Shown: in pieces, positions 3,801-16,539 of the stretch
How positions within the stretch are numbered: the first letter of the stretch is position 1
How the letters are laid out: each line of letters starts with the position of its first letter
Virus record (IMG/VR): IMGVR_UViG_3300025030_000339
Location: 1 to 29,851 of that record
DNA from: a virus
Reading direction: 5' to 3' (one strand)
DNA length: 29,851 nucleotides
The notes under the pieces: generated by a model
The model's database searches: none
Told to the model about the DNA's origin: nothing
Seen by the model: the letters and a program-made list of their open reading frames with translations, nothing else
Program-made: the position numbers and the translations under genes

Positions 3801-4394
3801 ATGGCCCGACGGACAGCGAAGCGTCGACTCACCGAACGCCAGCGCAGCTTCGCTCGCGAGTACCTCGTCGATTTGAACGGCACCCAGGCTGTGCTCCGAG
3901 CGGGCTACCACTGCTCCGCGGAGACCGCCGCCGTGACGGCGTACCGGCTGCTAAGGGATCCCCAGATTGCCGCGCTGGTGGCCAACGCGAACGCGATCCG
4001 AGCGCGGAAGACGGAGCTCACCGCTGAGCGGGTGCTGGCCGAGATCGTGCGGATCGCGTTCTCGGACCTCGGCGAGGTCTTCACCGCCGAGGGCGCGCTG
4101 AGGCCGATCGGCGAGATCCCGGAGGATGCGAGACGGGCGCTGGCCTCGGTCGAGACGGTCGAGCGGCAGGTCGAGGCCGACGATGGACCGGTCGTGCGCT
4201 CGGTCGTGCGGAAGGTGAAGCTGCACGACAAGCTCCGCGCGCTCGAGCTGGCGGCGAAACACCTGGGCCTCCTCGCGCACGACACCGGGGCGCCCGAGGG
4301 CAACCGGGAGATCGTGCTGCGGATCAAGGCGGGCGCCAACGGCGAGGAGATCGAGATCGGTCCCGACTCCGCCTCGCCGGCGACCACGCAGTGA
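3801..4394 (+). CDS. terS: Terminase small subunit (Terminase_2 type)
   Basis: The 197-residue protein has the hallmark N-terminus of Terminase_2 small subunits. RLTERQRSFAREYLVDLNGT (residues 9-28) is followed by QAVLRAGY and an ETAAVTAYRLLRDPQI helix, together forming the DNA-binding helix-turn-helix (about 10-60). The middle is helical (oligomerisation), and KLRALELAAKHLGLL near 150 is typical of the family's C-terminal part. It recognises the viral packaging site and delivers DNA to TerL. ATG 3801 has no Shine-Dalgarno site, and a -10-like TAGACT lies 6 bases upstream. Its stop overlaps the terL GTG. Confidence 0.93.
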   Translation: MARRTAKRRLTERQRSFAREYLVDLNGTQAVLRAGYHCSAETAAVTAYRLLRDPQIAALVANANAIRARKTELTAERVLAEIVRIAFSDLGEVFTAEGALRPIGEIPEDARRALASVETVERQVEADDGPVVRSVVRKVKLHDKLRALELAAKHLGLLAHDTGAPEGNREIVLRIKAGANGEEIEIGPDSASPATTQ

Positions 4395-5752
4395 CCCGTC
4401 TGGATCTCGTGCGCGCCGTGGACTATGTGCCGACGCCGACACAGGCGACGTTCCTCCGCGATCGGACGCCGACTCGGCTGCTCTGTGGAGGGCTCGGGTC
4501 GGGCAAGACGCTAACCGGCGCGTGGGCCGCGCTGGCGGCCGCGTTGGAGAATCAAGGGCGCGGCGACGGGATGCTCGTCGCCCCGAGCTTCCCGATGCTC
4601 GATCGTCTCGTGCTCCCAGCCTGGAAGCGCGTGGTCCCACGCGAGTTGATCCGCGCGCACAGGAAGATCGAGCGGCGGTACATCCTCACAACTGGGGACA
4701 GCGTGTGGTACGGCACGGCCGATGTGCCGGCCTCGCTCGAGGGGACAAATCTCGCGTGGTTCTGGGGCGACGAGGTGCGCTACTGGCCGCTCGCCTCGTG
4801 GCAGAACATGATCGCCAGGGTACGAGTGAGGGGTGCACGGTCGCTCCAGAGGATCGCGACCTCGACGCCAGCGATGGGCTGGATGTCGGTTGTCTTCGAG
4901 CGAGGCGTAGCCGATCGTCGTCTCACCCGGATCTCGACGAGGGAAAACGCGCCGAACCTGGATCCGAGTTACATCCCGACGCTCGAGGCTGCGCTGAGCC
5001 CGCGGCTCGCGCGAGCGCTGATCGAGGGTGAGTTCGTCGTGCTCGAGGGCGCGGTGTACGCGGAGGAGTGGCAGCCCGAGCGCAACGTGATCACGTGGGA
5101 GCACGACAAGCGCTTCATCACGTGGCTCTCGATCGACTTCGGCGCGCGCCGCCCAAGCGTGCTGCTGGCGCAGCAGGTCGGTGACACGCCGTGGTGGGAC
5201 CACAGAACCGGACGGCAGTTCGCGCCGCACGCGCTGATCGTGCTCGACGAACTCCACCCTGACGAGTGCCCGACGATGCGGCTGATCCCGCGAGTTCGTG
5301 AACTGCTCGCCGGACGGCGGGTGGACCAGATCGCGTGTGATCCAGCAGGCGCAGCGAGAGACCAGGCGAGCGGGCTCGCCAGCGTCGAGCTGCTCCGCGC
5401 CGAGTGGGGAGACATCGTGCGCTACACCTCCGACCCGCTGGACACGTCGATCCCCGCAGGGATCGATCGCGTGCGCGGCGCGCTGTGTCCCTCCGACGGG
5501 AGCCCGCCGCGGCTCTACGTCGAGCGGCGGCTCGCGCGAGCGGACGCGAGCTATCGAGGGCTCGTGAAGGCGCTCGCCGGGTACGCGTACCCGGTCGAGC
5601 GTGACGGACGACAGGTGAGCGATCACCCGGTGAAGGACGGGACCTACGAACACGCGATGGACGCGCTGCGGTACCTCGTGACAAACTCGCAGCCTCGCCC
5701 CGGCGGCGAGGGCCGCGTGTACTCCTACTCGTGGGGCGGTGGTGGCGGCTGA
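4391..5752 (+). CDS. terL: Terminase large subunit (ATPase and nuclease)
   Basis: The 453-residue protein contains an ATPase domain with Walker A GGLGSGKT (33-40) and a Walker B-like LAWFWGDE (121-128). The C-terminal RNase H-like nuclease has the expected acidic residues: D249 in SIDFG, D317 in ACDPAG and D424 in HAMDALRY. It pumps DNA into the procapsid through the portal and cuts the concatemer. It is slightly short but complete for the family and ends in a glycine-rich tail. The GTG start overlaps the terS stop (GTGA). Confidence 0.94.
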   Translation: MTRLDLVRAVDYVPTPTQATFLRDRTPTRLLCGGLGSGKTLTGAWAALAAALENQGRGDGMLVAPSFPMLDRLVLPAWKRVVPRELIRAHRKIERRYILTTGDSVWYGTADVPASLEGTNLAWFWGDEVRYWPLASWQNMIARVRVRGARSLQRIATSTPAMGWMSVVFERGVADRRLTRISTRENAPNLDPSYIPTLEAALSPRLARALIEGEFVVLEGAVYAEEWQPERNVITWEHDKRFITWLSIDFGARRPSVLLAQQVGDTPWWDHRTGRQFAPHALIVLDELHPDECPTMRLIPRVRELLAGRRVDQIACDPAGAARDQASGLASVELLRAEWGDIVRYTSDPLDTSIPAGIDRVRGALCPSDGSPPRLYVERRLARADASYRGLVKALAGYAYPVERDGRQVSDHPVKDGTYEHAMDALRYLVTNSQPRPGGEGRVYSYSWGGGGG

Positions 5753-6297: not shown

Positions 6298-6310
6298 AAA
6301 GGTGACGCTG

Positions 6311-8215
6311 ATGGTCGACTCGCTCCCCCGCGTGCTGCGCTCCCTCTTCGGTGGGCGCGAGACGACGGAGGAGCAGGTGCAGATCCCGATCTCGCTGCCC
6401 GCGCCCTACTCGACGCCGCAGCGCTGGATCGCACGCGCACAACTCGCGTGGCCTCACGACTACGCTGCGCAGGTGGACACGGCGCTGCGCTACCTGCGGG
6501 GGCAGCACCTGCGCGACACGACGCAGTGGCTCCGCGAGCACTACGGGGACTCGGCGCAGTTCATGACGCCGGCCGTGATCTCGGTCTTCCGGCGGGTCGT
6601 GCTGGAACTCGCTCGCGTGTACGGACAGGAGGGCGAGGAGTTCCCTCTCCTGTCCGAGGGCGAGGGCGAGGTGGACCCGCGGCAGGCCGACCTCTGGTCT
6701 CGAGTCCGAGTCGGCTGCGAACTCGATCGCAAGCTCAAGGAACTCGAGCGGCACACGGTCGCAGCGAAGCGGATGTTCGTTCGCGTCGGGTGGAACTCGC
6801 GTCTCGACGCGGTGCGGCTCACGCTCTTCTCGCCGACCAGCGTCTTCCCGATCTGGATCGGCGGCGACGACCGGCACCTCTCATCTGCGAGCGGCGTGCT
6901 GCTCGCGATCGAGCCGACGTACGACGAGCAGGGCAGAGCGATCGAGCGGTGGGAGTTCTGGTCAGCGGAGCGGACCTTCACGATCGATTCGCGCGGGCGG
7001 GTGGACCTCGGAACGATCGAGGCCGCAGACGGATCGGTGACGCCGTCGGCAGAGAATCCCTACGGGCAGATCCCGATCGTCGCCTTCGCGGCCGACGAGC
7101 AGGACACCGCCGGCTACTACGCGCTCCCGGACGAGCAGCTCCTCAGCGCTCAGCGCGTCGTGAACGCCGTGGCGAGTGACATCGTCCAGACGCACAGGCA
7201 GCAGGGGTACGGGCAGCTGTACACGGAGACAGTGCCGGGCGAGGCGCCGGGTGACTGGGCAGCGTCGACCTCTGTTGGCCCGAGGACAGGCCGTGATCGG
7301 GGCGCCGCGCAGGGCCGGACGATCCGGCTCGGACCGACTCGGATCGTCGACGTGCCGAGAGGCAGGCGGCTCGGGGTGCTCGCGTTCAACGCCGACGTTG
7401 AAGGCGGCGTGCGGCTCCTGCACTCCTACCTGTCCGACGTGATCACGTCGGAGGGGCTGCCTCCCGGGAGCGTGCTTGCGGACTCGAGAACGGCGGCGAG
7501 CGGCACCGCGCTGCTCGTCGAGCGCCAGCCGCTCACCGAGGCGCGTCGTGATCTCGTTGAGATCATGCGGCCTTCGACGCGCGAGTTGCTCGAGCTCGTG
7601 CGCCTCGCCTGGAATACGCACCGACCGACGGAGCAGTTGCGGCTCACGCCCGACTGGGTAGAGGGCACGCCCACGCCACCGATCTCGCGCGAGGAGAGGC
7701 GACGTGCGGACGAGGTGGACGTGAGGCTTGGGATCGAAAGCCCCGTGACGATCGTGATGCGCGACCGCGGTCTCGAGCGCGAGGCAGCAGTGCGCTACGT
7801 GGCCGAGCGACAGGCCGAGGGCGCCGGAGGCAGGAGCCTCGCTCGCTTGCTCGAGGAGCTGCTCGGCGAAGCGAGCGACGGTGCCGACGTCATTTCCGCA
7901 GAGAAGAAGGACATCTACGCCTACGAGGTCGAGGGCGGGATCTTCACGATCGACGAGATCCGCGGGGCCAAGGGCTGGCCGCCGCGGGCCGAGGACGGCC
8001 AGCTGACGGTGCCGCAATACCGAGCGAAACACGTCGAGGAGATGGCGCTCGCGACGGTCGCGACAACGGGTGGAGGGGCCGAGAAGATTCTGCGACTGCC
8101 CACAGTAGAGTCGCCGGCTGTCGCTGTCCCTGCCGGAGGCGGGTTGCTCGCAGCACAGGTCTCGGCCCCCACGGTCAGTCCGCTGACACAGGCCCGCGGT
8201 GAGGAGAAGACGTAA
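6311..8215 (+). CDS. Portal protein
   Basis: The 634-residue protein is called portal from length, position directly after terminase and before a Mu gpF-like gene, and sequence character. Supporting segments are ENPYGQIPIVAF (typical portal 'NPYG.IP' turn, about residue 247), LLSAQRVVNAVASDIVQTHRQ (portal-like helix) and TAASGTALLVERQPL, which resembles the 'SG.AL' helix of portals. It would form the dodecameric DNA channel at the capsid vertex. ATG 6311 is chosen because GAAAGG lies 8 nt upstream (6297-6302). GTG 6302 is in frame but lacks a site. The last 60 residues are Ala/Pro/Gly-rich. Confidence 0.85.
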   Translation: MVDSLPRVLRSLFGGRETTEEQVQIPISLPAPYSTPQRWIARAQLAWPHDYAAQVDTALRYLRGQHLRDTTQWLREHYGDSAQFMTPAVISVFRRVVLELARVYGQEGEEFPLLSEGEGEVDPRQADLWSRVRVGCELDRKLKELERHTVAAKRMFVRVGWNSRLDAVRLTLFSPTSVFPIWIGGDDRHLSSASGVLLAIEPTYDEQGRAIERWEFWSAERTFTIDSRGRVDLGTIEAADGSVTPSAENPYGQIPIVAFAADEQDTAGYYALPDEQLLSAQRVVNAVASDIVQTHRQQGYGQLYTETVPGEAPGDWAASTSVGPRTGRDRGAAQGRTIRLGPTRIVDVPRGRRLGVLAFNADVEGGVRLLHSYLSDVITSEGLPPGSVLADSRTAASGTALLVERQPLTEARRDLVEIMRPSTRELLELVRLAWNTHRPTEQLRLTPDWVEGTPTPPISREERRRADEVDVRLGIESPVTIVMRDRGLEREAAVRYVAERQAEGAGGRSLARLLEELLGEASDGADVISAEKKDIYAYEVEGGIFTIDEIRGAKGWPPRAEDGQLTVPQYRAKHVEEMALATVATTGGGAEKILRLPTVESPAVAVPAGGGLLAAQVSAPTVSPLTQARGEEKT

Positions 8216-8434: not shown

Positions 8435-9076
8435 GTGGCCCGGGTGGCCGATATCGAGGCCGAGGCGCTCGACATGCTTCGGCTGCGCGTGCTGGCGCTG
8501 CTCGATGGGGCCACGCCGCGCAACGCGGTGGCACGGATCGACGCAGTCGAGGACGCACTGCTCCGCGGCTACGACGTGCTCCTCGAGGCAGTGATCGCCG
8601 AGGTGGCGCGAGAGTTAGTAGAGTGGGACCTGCCGACGGCGGCTGTGGCCGAGACGAGCGCAGCGCTGAGGCAGGCGCGATTGCACGTTAGAGACGATGT
8701 GGAACGGTACGCGCGCGAGGCGAGGGGCACGCCGAAAGATCAGGGCGGCCCGCTCGCGGGGCTTCAGCGGCTCGCGACGAACGGGATGGGCCTCGTCGAC
8801 ACCGCGCTGATGGCGGCCGACCGCGCGGTCTCGATCGCGCAGGCCGAAGCGACAGGGATCGAGTGGTGGCTCTACGACGGGCCGGTGGACCAGCGGACGC
8901 GCGACGATTGCCGGGCGTGGGCCGGGCATCGGTTCACCTCGGCACAGGTCGCATCGCTGAAGAGCCGGGCAGGTCCGCAGCCGCCGAGCCTCTACGGAGG
9001 CGGCTGGAATTGCAGGCACCGATGGGCGCCTCTCGACGAGAGCGAGCTCGCGCAGTATCCGCCGTGGCCGGGCTGA
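8435..9076 (+). CDS. Phage Mu gpF-like head morphogenesis protein (minor head protein)
   Basis: The 213-residue protein has the family's C-terminal signature. A YDGPVDQRTRDDCRAWAG segment (147-164) is followed by a PPSLYGGGWNCRHRW segment (183-197): a conserved Asp, TR, Cys, then G-x-N-C-R at the end. The N-terminal 140 residues are helical. Mu gpF/SPP1 gp7 proteins bind the portal and are packaged as minor capsid components that help head assembly or DNA ejection. Its place right after portal is the normal one. GTG 8435 is the first start after the previous stop, and GTG 8444 is also possible. The upstream open frame (from about 8255) overlaps another gene and looks non-coding. Confidence 0.85.
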   Translation: MARVADIEAEALDMLRLRVLALLDGATPRNAVARIDAVEDALLRGYDVLLEAVIAEVARELVEWDLPTAAVAETSAALRQARLHVRDDVERYAREARGTPKDQGGPLAGLQRLATNGMGLVDTALMAADRAVSIAQAEATGIEWWLYDGPVDQRTRDDCRAWAGHRFTSAQVASLKSRAGPQPPSLYGGGWNCRHRWAPLDESELAQYPPWPG

Positions 9077-9579
9077 TCGCCGAGCAATACGCGGGGCACC
9101 TCGCGGCCGGCTACCCGGACGGGTGGACGCAGCATGGCGCGCAGGCAGCGCGCTTCCGGGCGGCGCTTGATCTACTGAGCAGATGCGGGATCGCGCTCGA
9201 CGGACGAACGCTGCACGATGCCGGGTGCGGGACGGGGGCGCTGCGAGCGTGGCTCCCGGATGGCTGCGAGTGGATCGGCACGGACGCGCGCGCTGGGATG
9301 GCCGGTGTGCGGCTCGACCTTCTGACCGGCGCGATCCCATTCGCGGACGTGACGGTGGTGAGCGGGACGCTCGCGTTCCACTCGACCGAGGCGGCGCTCG
9401 TGCTGCTCGGTCGGCTCTGGAGATCGACCGAGGCGGCGCTGGTGCTCAACCACGCGCCGGGGCTCGGGTCTGAGCGAGCGAGGATCGAGCGGTGGGCTGC
9501 ACTGCACGGGCTCGCCGCGACGGCCTGCGGCTACACGGGTTCGGATCGGACCTGGCTCTGCGTTAGGGACAGGGGATGA
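9064..9579 (+). CDS. Class I SAM-dependent methyltransferase-like protein
   Basis: This 171-residue protein has motif I DAGCGTGALRAW (52-63) after a beta strand and an acidic residue ending strand 2 (WIGTD, D74), the usual SAM-binding pattern. A typical DPPY/NPPY catalytic motif is absent, so a DNA N-methylase is not supported. The motif IV region reads VVSGTLAFHST. The substrate is unknown. A near-exact repeat of STEAALVL (107-114, 121-128) reflects a 42-bp offset DNA duplication at 9382 and 9424. GTG 9064 overlaps the gpF-like end by 13 nt. ATG 9022 is an in-frame alternative. Finding such a gene inside the head module is unusual. Confidence 0.7.
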   Translation: MAGLIAEQYAGHLAAGYPDGWTQHGAQAARFRAALDLLSRCGIALDGRTLHDAGCGTGALRAWLPDGCEWIGTDARAGMAGVRLDLLTGAIPFADVTVVSGTLAFHSTEAALVLLGRLWRSTEAALVLNHAPGLGSERARIERWAALHGLAATACGYTGSDRTWLCVRDRG

Positions 9580-9626
9580 CGTGCTCGCCTCTGCTGGTGT
9601 ACCGTGCGCGCGAGGAGGTAGACGAG

Positions 9627-10214
9627 GTGGCGAAGATCCGCGTGAGTTGGCGCTTCCCCGACGGGACCGACGTAGATGCCGTGATGACCCGCGTGATGAC
9701 CCGGATGGGCACACACGCGCGCAGCCTGATCGTGCGTCGCACCGGGCAGGGCCGCGGGATCGACGGACTCCTCGCGCCCTACTCGGCCGGCTACCGGCTG
9801 GCGAAGGCGGCTGCTGGCAGATCGCCGGCGCTCGTGGACCTCACGCTCTCGGGGCAGATGCTCCAGGCTCTCACCGTACTGCGCGTGACGCCGCGCCTCG
9901 CGACGCTGGGCTTCCGTCCCCTGCGTCGGAGGAAGGTCACGCTTGCCGCGCGCGGCCGGAAGTTCGTCGTGTCGGACCTCGAGACGCGGCGCAGCTCGAG
10001 GCGGAGGGTAGTCGCGAAAGCCAAGGCCACCACGTCGGCGGCCGCCGTGGTGAAGAACGATGAGCTCGCGCGGATCCATCACGAGGGACTCGGACGCATG
10101 CCCGCGCGGCCGTGGTTCGGCTTGTCGGATCGCGAGCGGCGCGAGATACTGGAGATCGGTCGCCGCGAGTCGCAGACGGCCATGGCAGCGAAGGGCCCCG
10201 CAGGGGGGTGGTGA
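9627..10214 (+). CDS. HK97 gp10 / Mu gpG-like virion morphogenesis protein
   Basis: The 195-residue protein resembles head-tail joining or tail-completion proteins. It has a DLTLSGQMLQAL segment near the middle and ends with NDELARIHHEGLGRMPARPW and FGLSDRERREI. The 'IPARPFLGLSD' type ending is shared by phage virion-morphogenesis proteins. The family stabilises tail ends or joins head and tail. Two starts are good. GTG 9627 has a perfect AGGAGGT at 9613-9619 with 7-nt spacing. ATG 9576 overlaps the previous stop (ATGA) and has AGGG 7 nt upstream, giving 17 more residues. The first is preferred because those extra residues look unlike the family. Confidence 0.68.
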   Translation: MAKIRVSWRFPDGTDVDAVMTRVMTRMGTHARSLIVRRTGQGRGIDGLLAPYSAGYRLAKAAAGRSPALVDLTLSGQMLQALTVLRVTPRLATLGFRPLRRRKVTLAARGRKFVVSDLETRRSSRRRVVAKAKATTSAAAVVKNDELARIHHEGLGRMPARPWFGLSDRERREILEIGRRESQTAMAAKGPAGGW

Positions 10215-10220
10215 GAGCAG

Positions 10221-11486
10221 ATGGCCTCGTCGAAAAAGTACGCGATCCTCTGCCTCGACGGTGCGGGCGCGCCGCTCACCGGGCTCACCCCCTCGTGGAC
10301 CGCGTACTGGAACTTGTTCGACAATTCGAGCGACGGGAGTCCGCCGACGATCACGGAGGTCGGAGGCGGGATCTACGTCTTCGACGCGGCGCTGATCGCA
10401 GATGGAGCACGGGCGGGCGTGATCGACTGCGGCGCCACGGCAGCGGTCGTGCTCGTCGCCGGGCAGAGCGGCGGGAGCGCGCGGTACGCGATCTGGCAGG
10501 GGCGCTACGAGGATCGCAACGCGGCCGCGGACGTGTGGGGCTACGCGACCCGTGAGCTGACCGGCCTCGATGTGGGCGCCGACGTGTGGGGCTACGGCAC
10601 GCGCACGCTGACAGCGCTGGACGGCACTCCGGCGGCCGACGTGTGGGCTGCGACGACTCGCGCGCTGACGAGCAGCGGAGACGACGCGGTCGCGACCGCG
10701 GTCTGGGCCGCCGTGGCCCGCACGCTGACGGACTTCTCCGACGTGTGGACGGCGGCCTCGCGCACGCTGACGGCGAGCGGCGTGACCGCGATCTGGGCGG
10801 CGGCCTCGCGCACGCTGACGGCGCAGTCGCTCTCCGGGCTCGGCGCCGAGAGCGTGAGCGTGCAGTTCACCGACGGCAGCTCTGGGGTCCAGGGCGCGCT
10901 GGTGCTCGCGATCAACGGATCGTCCGAGCTAGTCGCGGCGCAGCTCACCGACGGCGGCGGAAGCGTGTCGCTCCTGCTCGACGCCGGCGCGTACACGCTC
11001 CTCGCCACCAGGCCGGGCTACCAGTGGGCCGAGACGGCGGTCACCGTGTCGAGCCCGGACACGATCTCGACCTCGACGATCGCCGGGAGCGCGCTCACCG
11101 CGGGGCAGTTCGCGCAGGTCGGCGTGACGCGATCGGTGTCCTGCTCGGCGAAGACGCGAGGCGCGAGGATCGAGAACATCTCGCAGGGCGACGTGCTCAC
11201 GCTGACGCGCACGGTGACCGGCGTTCCGGACGGAACGACGATCAGCTCGGCGGTCGTGCGCTTCGGATCGTTCGCCGAGAAGCGCACGGATCTGAGCGTG
11301 GCGGCCACGGTCACCGACAGCGGAGCGGACGGCACAGGCGTGATCACCTTCGCGCTGACGGCGGCGTACACGCGCGGCTTTCAGCCGGGGCAACCAACCG
11401 ATTACCAGCTGCGCGTGGTCCTCGCGAGCGGGACCGAAGTGCTGGTCGAGGACGGCGTGATCGTCGTCGACCCGGAGATCGACTGA
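10221..11486 (+). CDS. Virion structural protein with VW-TRTLT repeats and Ig-like domains
   Basis: The 421-residue protein starts with a domain of about 95 residues (ILCLDGAGAPLTGLTP). Six imperfect repeats follow at about 104-200, each built on [ADV]VWxxxTRTLT. Beta-rich Ig-like segments then run to the C-terminus. Similar VW-A-TRTLT repeats occur in phage surface or fibre-like proteins, so a head-decoration or adhesin role is inferred. The repeats also show at DNA level: a roughly 24-bp identical block at about 10752 and 10800. It is upstream of the co-chaperonin and scaffold, which makes a head-associated location more likely than tail. Its stop shares a base with the next ATG (TGATG). 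Confidence 0.6.
   Translation: MASSKKYAILCLDGAGAPLTGLTPSWTAYWNLFDNSSDGSPPTITEVGGGIYVFDAALIADGARAGVIDCGATAAVVLVAGQSGGSARYAIWQGRYEDRNAAADVWGYATRELTGLDVGADVWGYGTRTLTALDGTPAADVWAATTRALTSSGDDAVATAVWAAVARTLTDFSDVWTAASRTLTASGVTAIWAAASRTLTAQSLSGLGAESVSVQFTDGSSGVQGALVLAINGSSELVAAQLTDGGGSVSLLLDAGAYTLLATRPGYQWAETAVTVSSPDTISTSTIAGSALTAGQFAQVGVTRSVSCSAKTRGARIENISQGDVLTLTRTVTGVPDGTTISSAVVRFGSFAEKRTDLSVAATVTDSGADGTGVITFALTAAYTRGFQPGQPTDYQLRVVLASGTEVLVEDGVIVVDPEID
10530..10820 (+). repeat. Tandem coding repeats (VW-TRTLT units)
   Basis: Six degenerate tandem units encode the VWxxxTRTLT motif. The last two share a long identical block (gcggcctcgcgcacgctgac) about 48 bp apart, suggesting recent unit duplication or gene conversion. 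Confidence 0.8.
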
Positions 11487-11773
11487 TGAGGCTGCGCGAG
11501 TTCCGGATCTACGGCGACCACGTCCTCCTGCGTGTCGAGGAGGAGTCGGTCGTCACCGCGGGCGGGATCGTGATCCCGGAGCAGGCGCGGGAGCGACGGC
11601 TGTCCGGCGAGATCGTGGCGGCCGGTCCTCGAGCGCCCGACTGGGCCCGCCCCGGGCTGCGCACGCTCTACGAGCGCTACGCCGGGAGCGAGGTCGTCTT
11701 CGACGACGACGAGAGCGTCGTGCATCTTGTGCTGCCTGGCGACCAGCTCGTACCCGTCGAGGTGGTCCTCTGA
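11486..11773 (+). CDS. GroES-like (Cpn10) co-chaperonin
   Basis: The 95-residue protein has the size and order of GroES. An initial strand with a basic residue (YGDHVLLRVEEES, residues 9-21) is followed by the mobile-loop signature AGGIVIPE (25-32). Then come SGEIVAAGP (40-48), a charged middle, GSEVVFDDDE (67-76) and a final strand LVLPGDQLVPVEVV. GroES caps the GroEL ring; phage versions such as T4 gp31 replace it so that the large capsid protein can fold. Here it lies directly upstream of scaffold and major capsid genes, so capsid folding is the likely job. The mobile loop GGIVIP fits the hydrophobic GroEL-contact motif. The ATG overlaps the previous stop by one base. Confidence 0.85.
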   Translation: MRLREFRIYGDHVLLRVEEESVVTAGGIVIPEQARERRLSGEIVAAGPRAPDWARPGLRTLYERYAGSEVVFDDDESVVHLVLPGDQLVPVEVVL

Positions 11774-11886: not shown

Positions 11887-12564
11887 GTGACCGAGGAAGC
11901 GAAGAAGACGGAGCAGGCAGCGAGCGGAGCGACAGGTGCGCCCGCGGCGCCCGCGGCGCCCGCGGCGCCCGCGATCGGATCTCCCGCGACCGGAGATCCG
12001 GCGACGAACGGAACGCAGGCGTCCAAGGTCTTCGACGAGACCTACGTGAGGGGCCTCCGGGAGGAGGCGGCGAAGCACCGGGTCGCCGCAAGCGAGGCGC
12101 AGAAGAAGCTCGACGCGATCGCGGCCGCGGAGAAGCTGGCGACCGACAAGCTCGCGCTCGAGCAGGGCCGCTGGCAGGACGTCCTCAAGAGCAAGGAAGA
12201 GGCGCTCGCGAGCGCCCAGCGGGATCTCGACGCGGCGAAGGCCCGGGCGGCCATCGCCGACAGGTACGACGCGGACGCGAGCGCGAAGGCGAAGGCGCTG
12301 GCGGACAAGCTCGGAGCCGCCGCGCCGAGCATCGACGGCCTCGACCCGAGGCTCGCAGTCTCGATCCTCGAGAAGTTCGAGGCGGTGACGACAGGGCAGA
12401 AAGTTCGGACGTCCGCCGGCAACCCGGTGGCGCCCGGACAGCAGAAAAAGGATCCGTGGGATCTGACCACGGACGAGTTCGCCGCGCTCTCGCTCGAGGA
12501 GCAGGCGGCTGCGTCGCGCGCCGTGAGGATGCGCGGCGTCACGCATCCTCGACCGAAGCTCTAA
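11887..12564 (+). CDS. Capsid scaffolding protein
   Basis: The 225-residue acidic, Ala/Glu/Lys-rich protein has a disordered N-terminus with APAAP repeats from a 9-bp GCCCGCGGC tandem (about 11940-11975). The segment FDETYVRGLREEAAKHR (49-65) is the characteristic entry to the long coiled coil of phage scaffold proteins, and the coil continues to about residue 125. The C-terminus has DPWDLTTDEFAAL and a basic end (HPRPKL), in line with a coat-binding tail. It would direct procapsid assembly and then leave. Position just upstream of the major capsid protein supports the call. GTG 11887 has AGGGAG 6 nt upstream. Confidence 0.85.
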   Translation: MTEEAKKTEQAASGATGAPAAPAAPAAPAIGSPATGDPATNGTQASKVFDETYVRGLREEAAKHRVAASEAQKKLDAIAAAEKLATDKLALEQGRWQDVLKSKEEALASAQRDLDAAKARAAIADRYDADASAKAKALADKLGAAAPSIDGLDPRLAVSILEKFEAVTTGQKVRTSAGNPVAPGQQKKDPWDLTTDEFAALSLEEQAAASRAVRMRGVTHPRPKL

Positions 12565-12611: not shown

Positions 12612-13547
12612 ATGGCCGACGCATTCACCACTCGCGGAACCGCCGCCGTGCCCGACGGCACGATGGCGAGCGGCGTCACCCCCGCGCAGCTCTCGGCCGA
12701 GATCCGTCTCGCCGCGCGCGCGCAGATCGTCCTCGCGGACAAGGTGATCCGGAAGGACCTCCCGCGCGGCGTCGCGCAGTGGAAGTACGTCTCGAATTCC
12801 TCGCTGACCGCCACGTCGCTGACCGAGGAGGCGGACCAGGACTCCTCGGCGATGACCCTCTCGGGGATCACGGTGACCACCGACGGTGTCGGGGTGACGG
12901 TGAAGCCGACGGAAGCGGCGCAGCGCGCGACGACCTACGACCTCGCGCAGCTCGCGGTGACGGAGGGGTCCCGCGCGCTCGCCGAGAAGATGGACACGGA
13001 TCTGCTCGCGCTCGCGAGCGGATTCACCACGAATTCGGTCGGCACGAGCGGCGGCGATCTCACGAAGGCGATCATGATGTCCGCCCGGTACAAGCTCCTG
13101 AACGCGAACGTGCCGAGGGGCTTCGATCAGGGCGATCCGAGCTCGTTCGGTCCCTCGCCGTCCGGCCTCCAGGGGATCATGTGCGTTCTCGACCCGTGGG
13201 CGCTGCTCGACCTCCAGACCGCGGTGGAGACGAGCGGCTCCTCGTGGCTGATGGACCCGACCGCGCACGGCGTGATGTACGACGGGGGCGCCGTCTCTCC
13301 CGGCTACGCCGGATCGTTCGCCGGAATCCCGATCTTCCAGTCGAACATGGTGCAGCTCTCCGGGTCCGACTTCATCAACTTGATGTTCGTTCCCTCGGCC
13401 CTGCTGCTCGCGGTGCAGGACTTCGCGGTGGTCCGCTTCGACTTCGACATCGAGACCAGGACGGACGTGATCACGGTGGACGCCTGGTACGGCGTCTCCG
13501 AGGGCGTCGACGGGTTCGGCTGCAAGATCACGGTCGCCAACACGTAG
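12612..13547 (+). CDS. Major capsid protein
   Basis: This 311-residue protein directly follows the scaffold gene and is flanked by head genes. It has an N-terminal helical arm, an ITVTTDGVGVTVKPTEAAQ stretch, a long spine-type helix (AEKMDTDLLALASGF), LQGIMCVLDPWALLDLQ and a FAGIPIFQSN segment. These are typical of HK97-fold capsids of the phage class with separate scaffolds. GGGAG at 12601-12605 gives a good ribosome site. It would form the icosahedral shell. The last six codons also make the left arm of a long hairpin that spans the stop codon. Confidence 0.85.
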   Translation: MADAFTTRGTAAVPDGTMASGVTPAQLSAEIRLAARAQIVLADKVIRKDLPRGVAQWKYVSNSSLTATSLTEEADQDSSAMTLSGITVTTDGVGVTVKPTEAAQRATTYDLAQLAVTEGSRALAEKMDTDLLALASGFTTNSVGTSGGDLTKAIMMSARYKLLNANVPRGFDQGDPSSFGPSPSGLQGIMCVLDPWALLDLQTAVETSGSSWLMDPTAHGVMYDGGAVSPGYAGSFAGIPIFQSNMVQLSGSDFINLMFVPSALLLAVQDFAVVRFDFDIETRTDVITVDAWYGVSEGVDGFGCKITVANT

Positions 13548-13992: not shown

Positions 13993-14177
13993 GTCGCGAG
14001 GCGATCGACGAGATGTTGCGCGGCGTGAAGCGCCACGCCGATCGCGTGGGCAAGTCGCTCACCGAGCGAGAGCTGCGCCGCGAGGTGGTCGACCCGATCC
14101 GGCAGTTGGAGCGGGAGGAGCGGCACCATGGCGATCGCGACTACCGCGAGGGCGAGCGAAAGAACAAGCTGCGCTGA
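13989..14177 (+). CDS. Small charged hypothetical protein
   Basis: A 62-residue, highly charged, helical ORF (EAIDEMLRGVKRHADRVG, ELRREVVDPIRQLERE) starts in a GTGA overlap with the previous gene. Its amphipathic helix could bind nucleic acid or a partner protein. No family is recognised. Its 3' end contains a GGAGGAG that resembles a ribosome site for the next frame. Confidence 0.5.
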   Translation: MSREAIDEMLRGVKRHADRVGKSLTERELRREVVDPIRQLEREERHHGDRDYREGERKNKLR

Positions 14178-14211
14178 GCGCGCTGACAGCGCGGGCGCGA
14201 AGGAAGAGACG

Positions 14212-16539
14212 ATGCCGACGATCACGAAGAGCCGTATCCTTCGCACGCTCACGGGAGTGGGCGTCGTCGCGCTCCTCGTGGGCGCGGCGCCGACGGGCGA
14301 CTACACCCGGCACGACGATCAGCAGTACTTCGTCGGCGCCGTGAACATCGACGGCACCGTGACCACGGCCGGGAGCACGAGCGACTTCGTCGTGGTCGCC
14401 GGAGACGACGCGTCGATTACGGGCACCGACGACGTGTCGCTCGAGCACGGCTCGACGAACTCGATCGTGAACATCGCGACCGCGCTGTTCGCGGCCGACG
14501 TGAACATCGGCAACGCCACGGGCGTCACCGACGTCGACATCACGGCGGGCACCGGAGGAGTGACCCTCCAGTCGACGACCACGGGCGACGTGACGCTCGA
14601 CCCCTCGGACGATCTGCTCTGCACGGTGGCCGACGACGAGACGCACACGATGGAGTCGGCGTCCGCCATCTTCTCCGTGACAGGGACCGCGGGCTTCTCG
14701 ATCAGCCTCGGCACCGACGACACCACGGCGGACACGATCGCGATCGGCAGCGCGAAGGACGACGTGGACGTCGACGGCGAAGACATCCAGTTCGAGAGCG
14801 CCGACGACACGCACTTCCTCTCGACATCGGCAGGGGGCATCTTCAATTTCGGTACGGGCGCCAACGGCTACATCTTCAACTTCGGTACCGACGACACGCT
14901 GGCCGACGACATCAACATCGGCTCCGCGCTCGACGACGTGGACATCACGGGAGCCTCGTCGTTCGTCGCAGGCACGGGCGACCCGCTGACGATCACGGGC
15001 AACGCGGCGAGCACCTGGAGCACCACGGCGGGCGACCTCATCCTGAGCGCGGATGCCGCGAGCGTGACCATCACGGGCAACGAGGCGGCCGCGGGGCAGG
15101 TGGCGCTCTCGGCCACCGGGGTCATCGCGGGCAACGCGATGACCCTGGCAACCAGCGACGGAGGGATCTCGGTCGCCGCGAGCGGGTCGGTGAACGGGGA
15201 CCTGATGCTGAGCGCCGCCGACGACGCGACGCTGAACGGCGGGAGCGCCGGGTCGCTCATCACGATCGGCGGGAACACGCAGGGTAACGTGCTGAACGTC
15301 TGCGCGGACAACACGACGGCCGACGACATCAACGTGGGGTCCGCGCTCGACACGGTGGCGATCACGTCGAGCGTGTGGAGCGTCGACGACAACGGCGCTT
15401 TCTCGGGTCTCGGCGACCTGACGTGCGCGACAGGGCTGACCGGCGGGTGGGATCTCTCCTGCGCGGCGAGTGCGGCGGCCACGCCTGGCCAGTCGATCGA
15501 TCTCACGGGGCAGGCTGGCGGCACGGCGGCGACGGACTCTGACGGGCAGGTGGGCGGCGCTGTGAGCGCGACCGGCGGCGTCGGCTCGGCGCTGAACGGC
15601 GGCGGCGCGAACGACGGCAGCGGCGGAGACGTCGTGCTCCTCGGTGGTGCGCGCGGCGGCGCGACGGGTTCGGCGGTACACGGGATCGTGCGCGTCGGCA
15701 ACCCGACCGTGAGCGGGACCCGAGCCACCGACTACCTCGCCGTCGGTGGCGGATTCGAGGTCGACGGAATCGCGCTGTTCGCCGGCTCCACGACGCTCGG
15801 AGACAATGCGGCCGACGCTCTGACGATCACGGGTTCCCTCTCGGATGTCAATTTCCAGACGGGTCTCGGTGGCGGCGCGGACATCGGGAGCGCCGCTGCG
15901 GCGGCCGACACGGCGGGGCAGTCGCTCGATCTGCTCGGGCAACTCGGTGGGGCGGCATCGACGGGGCAGGTCGGTCGCGCTGGTGGGCTGATCTCGATCA
16001 CCGGCGGCGCCGGCACTCCCAAGGATGGCGCCGGCGCGACGGATGGCGATGGCGGTGACGTGGTCCTCCTCGGCGGCGCGCGCGGAGGCACCACGGGAGG
16101 GACCGAGGTGCACGGGATCGTGCGCGTCGGCAGCCCGACCGTGGGATCGACGAAGGCAACCAACGTACTCGCGATCGGAGGCGCGCTCGAGGTCGACGGC
16201 GCCGCTCGATTCGACGGCGGGCTCGTGATGGGCGACACCTGCACGGGATCGGTCAGCGCCAATGCGGTCTCGTGCTCGGGCGCAAGCGGTGTGATCACGG
16301 ACGATGGCACCGACATCAATCTCGACGCGAGCAGGGCCGACATCACGTGGACGAACGCGAGGATCGCAGCGACCTCCGTGGTGCTGCTCACCGTCTGCGG
16401 CCCGACGCGGGAAACGAACACGAACGTCACAGCGCAGGTCGTGCCGGGCGCGGGCACCGCGACGCTCCAGGTTCGGAACACCGGGACCGCGAATTTCACC
16501 TCGGCCGGCCTCATGCTGTGCTTCCTCGTGCTCAACTAG
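14212..16539 (+). CDS. Long repetitive beta-rich protein with export-signal-like N-terminus (possible fibre/adhesin)
   Basis: The 775-residue protein begins with a basic then hydrophobic segment (KSRILRTLTGVGVVALLVGA, residues 6-25), resembling a Sec signal peptide. The rest is Gly/Thr/Asp/Ala-rich with recurring DDTxADxIxIGSAxDDVDI-type units and no long helices, fitting a beta-solenoid or fibre. Residues about 426-533 and 569-676 are a tandem duplication with offset 143 residues (429 bp), each containing VVLLGGARGG and HGIVRVG. A C-terminal beta domain has two Cys. ATG 14212 has AGGAAGAG 4-10 nt upstream. ATG 14128 is in frame, also with GGAGGAG, adding 28 residues but overlapping the upstream gene. 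Virion fibre is the inferred role; a secreted protein is also possible. Confidence 0.6.
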   Translation: MPTITKSRILRTLTGVGVVALLVGAAPTGDYTRHDDQQYFVGAVNIDGTVTTAGSTSDFVVVAGDDASITGTDDVSLEHGSTNSIVNIATALFAADVNIGNATGVTDVDITAGTGGVTLQSTTTGDVTLDPSDDLLCTVADDETHTMESASAIFSVTGTAGFSISLGTDDTTADTIAIGSAKDDVDVDGEDIQFESADDTHFLSTSAGGIFNFGTGANGYIFNFGTDDTLADDINIGSALDDVDITGASSFVAGTGDPLTITGNAASTWSTTAGDLILSADAASVTITGNEAAAGQVALSATGVIAGNAMTLATSDGGISVAASGSVNGDLMLSAADDATLNGGSAGSLITIGGNTQGNVLNVCADNTTADDINVGSALDTVAITSSVWSVDDNGAFSGLGDLTCATGLTGGWDLSCAASAAATPGQSIDLTGQAGGTAATDSDGQVGGAVSATGGVGSALNGGGANDGSGGDVVLLGGARGGATGSAVHGIVRVGNPTVSGTRATDYLAVGGGFEVDGIALFAGSTTLGDNAADALTITGSLSDVNFQTGLGGGADIGSAAAAADTAGQSLDLLGQLGGAASTGQVGRAGGLISITGGAGTPKDGAGATDGDGGDVVLLGGARGGTTGGTEVHGIVRVGSPTVGSTKATNVLAIGGALEVDGAARFDGGLVMGDTCTGSVSANAVSCSGASGVITDDGTDINLDASRADITWTNARIAATSVVLLTVCGPTRETNTNVTAQVVPGAGTATLQVRNTGTANFTSAGLMLCFLVLN
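15487..16240 (+). repeat. Tandem duplication within the fibre-like gene
   Basis: Two diverged copies, about 15487-15810 and 15916-16240, are offset by 429 bp. They share the encoded motifs GQS-DL-GQ-GG, GGDVVLLGGARGG and VHGIVRVG-PTV, plus a V-E/L-VDG-FDG end. Confidence 0.75.

Follow-up and report, generated by a model that had tools for sequence, protein, structure and literature searches.

We describe a gene for a divergent GroES-like co-chaperonin (Cpn10) in the head operon of a viral record, here called the window (the whole stretch of 29.9 kb, 69% GC, that was analysed). Judging from its family and its position, the encoded protein is probably (we would say with a likelihood of about 70%) a phage co-chaperonin that caps the host GroEL to fold head proteins. 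Cpn10 genes upstream of capsid genes are already known, and the window is not unique in having one. What it adds is a divergent, roofless co-chaperonin resembling T4 gp31 that adjoins a small (32.5 kDa) capsid protein. The features discussed below are collected in Table 1.

Table 1. Coordinates of the co-chaperonin gene, its recognizable parts and its neighbours in the window.
Feature	Position	Strand	Description and basis
Terminase large subunit	4391..5752	+	PHROG 2, E 4e-31; Terminase_6N
Portal protein	6302..8215	+	637 aa, 70 kDa; PHROG 64, E 8.7e-5; SPP1_portal below Pfam cut-off
Virion morphogenesis/tail completion (Neck1) protein	9576..10214	+	Phage_tail_S above cut-off; PHROG 26
421-aa protein upstream of Cpn10	10221..11486	+	no confident family match
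Cpn10/GroES-like co-chaperonin	11486..11773	+	95 aa, 10.6 kDa; PF00166, PHROG 3188; predicted fold like Cpn10 and T4 gp31
Mobile loop region EEESVVTAGGIVIPEQAR	11537..11590	+	about residues 18-35; alignments; IVI at position of GroES IVL
Shortened roof segment PRAPDWARP	11627..11653	+	9 residues between two flanking conserved glycines; alignment count
Probable head scaffolding protein	11887..12564	+	225 aa; weak match to PHROG 233, E 0.016; position just before major capsid gene
Major capsid protein	12612..13547	+	311 aa, 32.5 kDa; PHROG 267, E 2.6e-10

The gene had been proposed to encode a 95-residue protein of the Cpn10 type, and the reading frame fits exactly, from an ATG at 11486 to a TGA ending at 11773. 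The Pfam Cpn10 profile (PF00166), which had been named as the check to make, matches with 46.3 bits (E 4.5e-12) against a cut-off of 21.1, and the PHROG 3188 profile ('co-chaperonin GroES') matches with E 6.6e-9. A phmmer search of the PDB gave E-values down to 4e-17, and the top matches were all co-chaperonins. With a Cpn10 profile built here, the real sequence scored 72.8 bits and the best of 2000 shuffles 9.4; since this profile contained the query itself, the match to the curated Pfam model is the better test. There are matches to the NCBIfam GroES models as well (E down to 1.2e-12), but the best of them scores 47.9 bits where the cut-off is 109, and the protein stays below every NCBIfam GroES equivalog/subfamily cut-off, which makes it a divergent member of the family and not a GroES of the cellular type. 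The match to PHROG 931 (head morphogenesis), which we take to be the sequence family of T4 gp31, is weak (E 0.15). At the three codon positions, the GC content is 0.80/0.42/0.90, as fits a true coding gene in a sequence this rich in GC.

The mobile loop reads EEESVVTAGGIVIPEQA. The GGIVIP motif pointed out in the original prediction is present; it aligns with GGIVLT of GroES, with IVI in place of IVL, and so retains the hydrophobic tripeptide of the loop that contacts GroEL. Bacterial GroES shares the fold and the mobile loop with the window protein and differs in the roof. Roof lengths were counted on aligned Cpn10 sequences, 80 from bacteria and 55 from viruses. The roof segment has 16-18 residues in 78 of the 80 bacterial proteins (the other two have 12 residues and an unalignable segment), compared with 9 in the window, where the roof beta-hairpin that is usual (though not obligatory) in Cpn10 is absent. 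Further short viral segments occur in MW202796 (9 residues), L024 (8) and L029 (9). A structure prediction, also suggested beforehand, returned the expected GroES beta-barrel. The AlphaFold model, made from a 56-sequence alignment, matches Cpn10 structures in Foldseek (probability 1.00) and in a VIA comparison (Z 8-9.5, with non-Cpn10 rows from Z 6.7); T4 gp31 (1g31) matches at Z 9.0, TM values to Cpn10 chains are about 0.5-0.65, and the best named viral matches in BFVD are nearly all GroES or Cpn10 of phages/viruses. As the confidence of the model is moderate (pLDDT 67.5) and an alignment made of Cpn10s favours that very fold, the match is supporting rather than independent evidence.

On the plus strand, the genes run in the order DnaB-like helicase, terminase small and large subunits, portal, a weak Mu F-like match, Phage_tail_S/tail completion, the 421-aa protein, Cpn10, probable scaffold, major capsid and, later, an amidase. 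The 421-aa gene ends in a TGA that shares one base with the start codon of the Cpn10 gene (TGATG), an arrangement suggestive of translational coupling, and the capsid gene starts 839 bases past the Cpn10 gene. Between 10000 and 14200 we found no promoter-like site and no terminator-like site on the plus strand, using consensus sequences that may not suit the host; this fits a single operon. The original prediction had set the gene between a structural protein and scaffold/capsid genes: the capsid part of this placement stands and the scaffold is likely (Table 1), while the structural nature of the upstream protein is unproven, given that it matches no family with confidence. The major capsid protein is 26% identical to the capsid protein of Pelagibacter phage HTVC112P, and BLAST finds no similarity between the scaffold candidate and the scaffold of HTVC112P. 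The genes after the capsid region, most of them without a family match, are read as a siphovirus-like tail module.

Several smaller observations concern the same phage. The 421-aa protein contains repeats of the form ADVWGYATRTLT. Further upstream, a 238-aa reading frame (8863-9579) has a GCGTGALRAWL-type motif resembling SAM-dependent methyltransferases, and no Pfam or PHROG family reaches 0.01 for it. Just past the capsid region lies an 803-aa protein (14128-16539), possibly a virion surface protein, with many repeated stretches (for example, GGDVVLLGGARGG occurs twice); Pfam and PHROG searches gave no family match. A 12.5 kb IMG/VR contig (L095) with a terminase 99% identical to that of the window extends this phage by about 4.6 kb upstream, where its reading frames carry DPPYG and DPFVGSGTT-type motifs and look like DNA methyltransferases.

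A home-made GroEL profile gave no match in the 29.9-kb fragment that makes up the record, which leaves the host GroEL as the natural partner of the phage Cpn10. Co-expressed with the head proteins, the Cpn10 would be expected to assemble into a ring of seven copies whose GGIVIP mobile loops would dock onto host GroEL, and the capped chamber would then fold at least one phage head protein, presumably the capsid protein, the portal or the connector. The head proteins of HK97 need GroEL/GroES. Those of lambda do too (PMC4294664), and on these grounds both the capsid protein and the portal count as candidate clients. The established precedent is the folding of gp23 by T4 gp31 and host GroEL (PMC3012670).

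T4 gp31 and RB49 CocO make a close comparison: like the window protein, they are phage co-chaperonins of the Cpn10 fold with host GroEL as the presumed partner. The hydrophobic tripeptide of the mobile loop is found in both gp31 (GLII) and the window protein (GIVI), and neither has a roof loop (PMC6318259 for gp31), the roof segment being 10 residues long in gp31, counted by eye, and 9 in the window. The differences are that gp31 is longer (111 aa compared with 95 aa) with a longer mobile loop, and that its gene lies beside rIII and the 30.x genes, not among head genes. Moreover, gp31 serves a capsid protein of about 56 kDa (PMC6318259), and the 'bigger cage' rationale transfers poorly to a capsid protein of only 32.5 kDa, a size well within the range of GroEL-GroES, for which there is no obvious need of a special cap. 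If the loss of the roof matters for the folding of head proteins, the window provides a test case in which client size is an unlikely reason, with a bearing on the need of T4 for gp31.

The position by itself does not settle the function, since T4 gene 31 and the groES of Pseudoalteromonas siphovirus B8b are located elsewhere than before the capsid gene. A general co-chaperonin of host takeover, which diverts or enhances host GroEL on behalf of many proteins of the phage or the host and whose place in the head operon only serves late expression, is an alternative to be weighed. T4 gp31 and RB49 CocO can substitute for GroES in all essential folding in E. coli (PMC3012670), and Cpn10 is sited differently in other phages: B8b likewise has a GroES-like gene in its structural region, but shortly before the tail tape measure gene (PMC4294664), whereas that of the window precedes scaffold and capsid. 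What speaks against such a broad role is the recurrent site, only a few genes ahead of a capsid gene from either of two PHROG families, which points to head proteins as the main clients, and we consider the takeover role unlikely. More improbable still is that a Cpn10-fold protein has given up working with GroEL and become a component of the virion or of its assembly. In favour of this, the window protein has the longest end branch in our Cpn10 tree (3.48), lies below all NCBIfam GroES cut-offs and has a short roof segment; yet the mobile loop that contacts GroEL (GGIVIP) is among its best-kept parts, and the part that has changed, the roof, is also missing in gp31, a working co-chaperonin (PMC6318259). 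That the gene is a captured host groES, a passenger with no role in phage assembly, is very improbable: Cpn10 is ubiquitous in bacteria and some groES records in phage collections are plain host chromosome, but here there is no adjoining groEL, the start overlaps within a late operon, the highest identity to any row of the tree is 37%, and the protein has diverged much further than a recently captured one would have.

We return to the preferred reading, a co-chaperonin for head proteins, which had been put forward as a dedicated capsid-folding partner working with host GroEL. The Cpn10 identity, the position in the head operon and the lack of a GroEL match in the record argue for it; the part that called the arrangement special was overstated. 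Annotated GroES/Cpn10 genes lie 1.8-2.2 kb before the capsid gene in at least seven phages (Roseobacter CRP-902, Pelagibacter HTVC027P, Alcaligenes QDWS535, Planktothrix Pag-Yong1, 023Pt_psg01 and two Manatee Spring genomes), downstream of terminase and portal if the stretch has these annotated, and in pelagiphages of the HTVC023P type GroES is part of the core genome (PMC9599517). The flavophage family Pervagoviridae has Cpn10 and portal among its conserved proteins (PMC8776804), and the GroES of siphovirus B8b was reported in 2015 (PMC4294664). In the open-licence literature, we found no paper on the head-operon placement itself.

In the capsid proteins, the phages differ. Those of three of the seven isolates match PHROG 371, not PHROG 267 as in the window; the remaining isolates were linked to the PHROG 371 type by a profile built from the capsids of all seven. 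The same profile links several IMG/VR contigs (L058, L074-L076 and L078), in which Cpn10 also stands 1.8-2.2 kb before this capsid type, and the Cpn10s of L058, L074 and L078 match PHROG 3188, as that of the window does. PHROG 267 is thus a second capsid family among head modules with Cpn10 a few genes upstream. The HTVC023P/CRP-901-type and related phages (HTVC027P, CRP-902, 023Pt_psg01, Pag-Yong1, QDWS535, MW202785 and MW202796) resemble the window in having a GroES/Cpn10 gene that precedes the major capsid gene by a few genes; unlike it, they have a Mu gpT-like capsid protein (PHROG 371), different intervening genes (about 290, 160 and 190 aa) and a roof segment mostly of 15-21 residues, with 9 only in MW202796.

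The ancestry of these genes was addressed with a tree of 84 Cpn10 sequences over 100 columns, which does not place the window protein (it joins no supported group). The test does not reject a single clade of the window Cpn10 and the head-operon Cpn10s of phages with a PHROG 371 capsid (p-AU 0.94), which means that shared descent and independent acquisition are indistinguishable for the head-operon Cpn10s. We tentatively suggest, as a possibility that is itself rather doubtful, that the head-operon Cpn10s could be a distinct phage lineage of capsid-dedicated co-chaperonins moving between capsid-module families, some of which (window, MW202796 and L024) would have lost the roof, as in T4 gp31, for an open-topped cage in which head proteins fold. 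A few apparent relatives were set aside. Two short contigs from the single-protein search (L002 and L003) match over a stretch of only 20 residues (74-93), by chance, and their other reading frames resemble RNA-phage replicase and maturation proteins, judged from the translations. Bacterial groES usually neighbours groEL. The groES of Acinetobacter phage MD-2021a belongs to a host groESL operon, not to a phage, and Enterococcus phage Efs 1-1-1, with groES directly before groEL, was likewise rejected.

The association of Cpn10 with head genes is recurrent but not general. Among 30 Cpn10-bearing viral records, 27 have no GroEL match (PF00118) anywhere in the record; a lone Cpn10 is common in such contigs, but most were picked because no GroEL was seen beside Cpn10, which makes the count a description, not a rate. 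Often no recognized capsid gene is close to Cpn10. In one of the Cpn10 loci (L007), a PHROG 267 capsid gene lies about 18 kb from Cpn10, and in two jumbo records, L015 and L043, more than 100 kb separate it from the best Gp23 matches; in further Cpn10 records no capsid gene was recognized with the few capsid families searched. From the side of the capsid, none of 80 IMG/VR relatives found via the capsid protein has a Cpn10 match in the DNA available (43 of the 80 have at least 3 kb upstream), so these capsids can generally do without one, and the idea that the family generally travels with Cpn10 was rejected. A search with the window capsid protein as the only query gave no close relative in either IMG/VR or the GTDB genomes. 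Among the loci examined, the only other one with a PHROG 267-type capsid and a Cpn10 is L010, where the Cpn10 has a full-length roof and lies upstream of the terminase, about 5.5 kb upstream of the capsid gene.

Some of the viral records contain a second, divergent Cpn10-domain gene (L043:16491-16925, L030:9134-9592, L083:13916-14551 and L085:16483-16902; also L069 and L082). It lies about 6-8 kb downstream of the canonical gene, giving two co-chaperonin genes per phage, and the Pfam Cpn10 profile scores above its cut-off in all four that were tested (L043, L030, L083 and L085).
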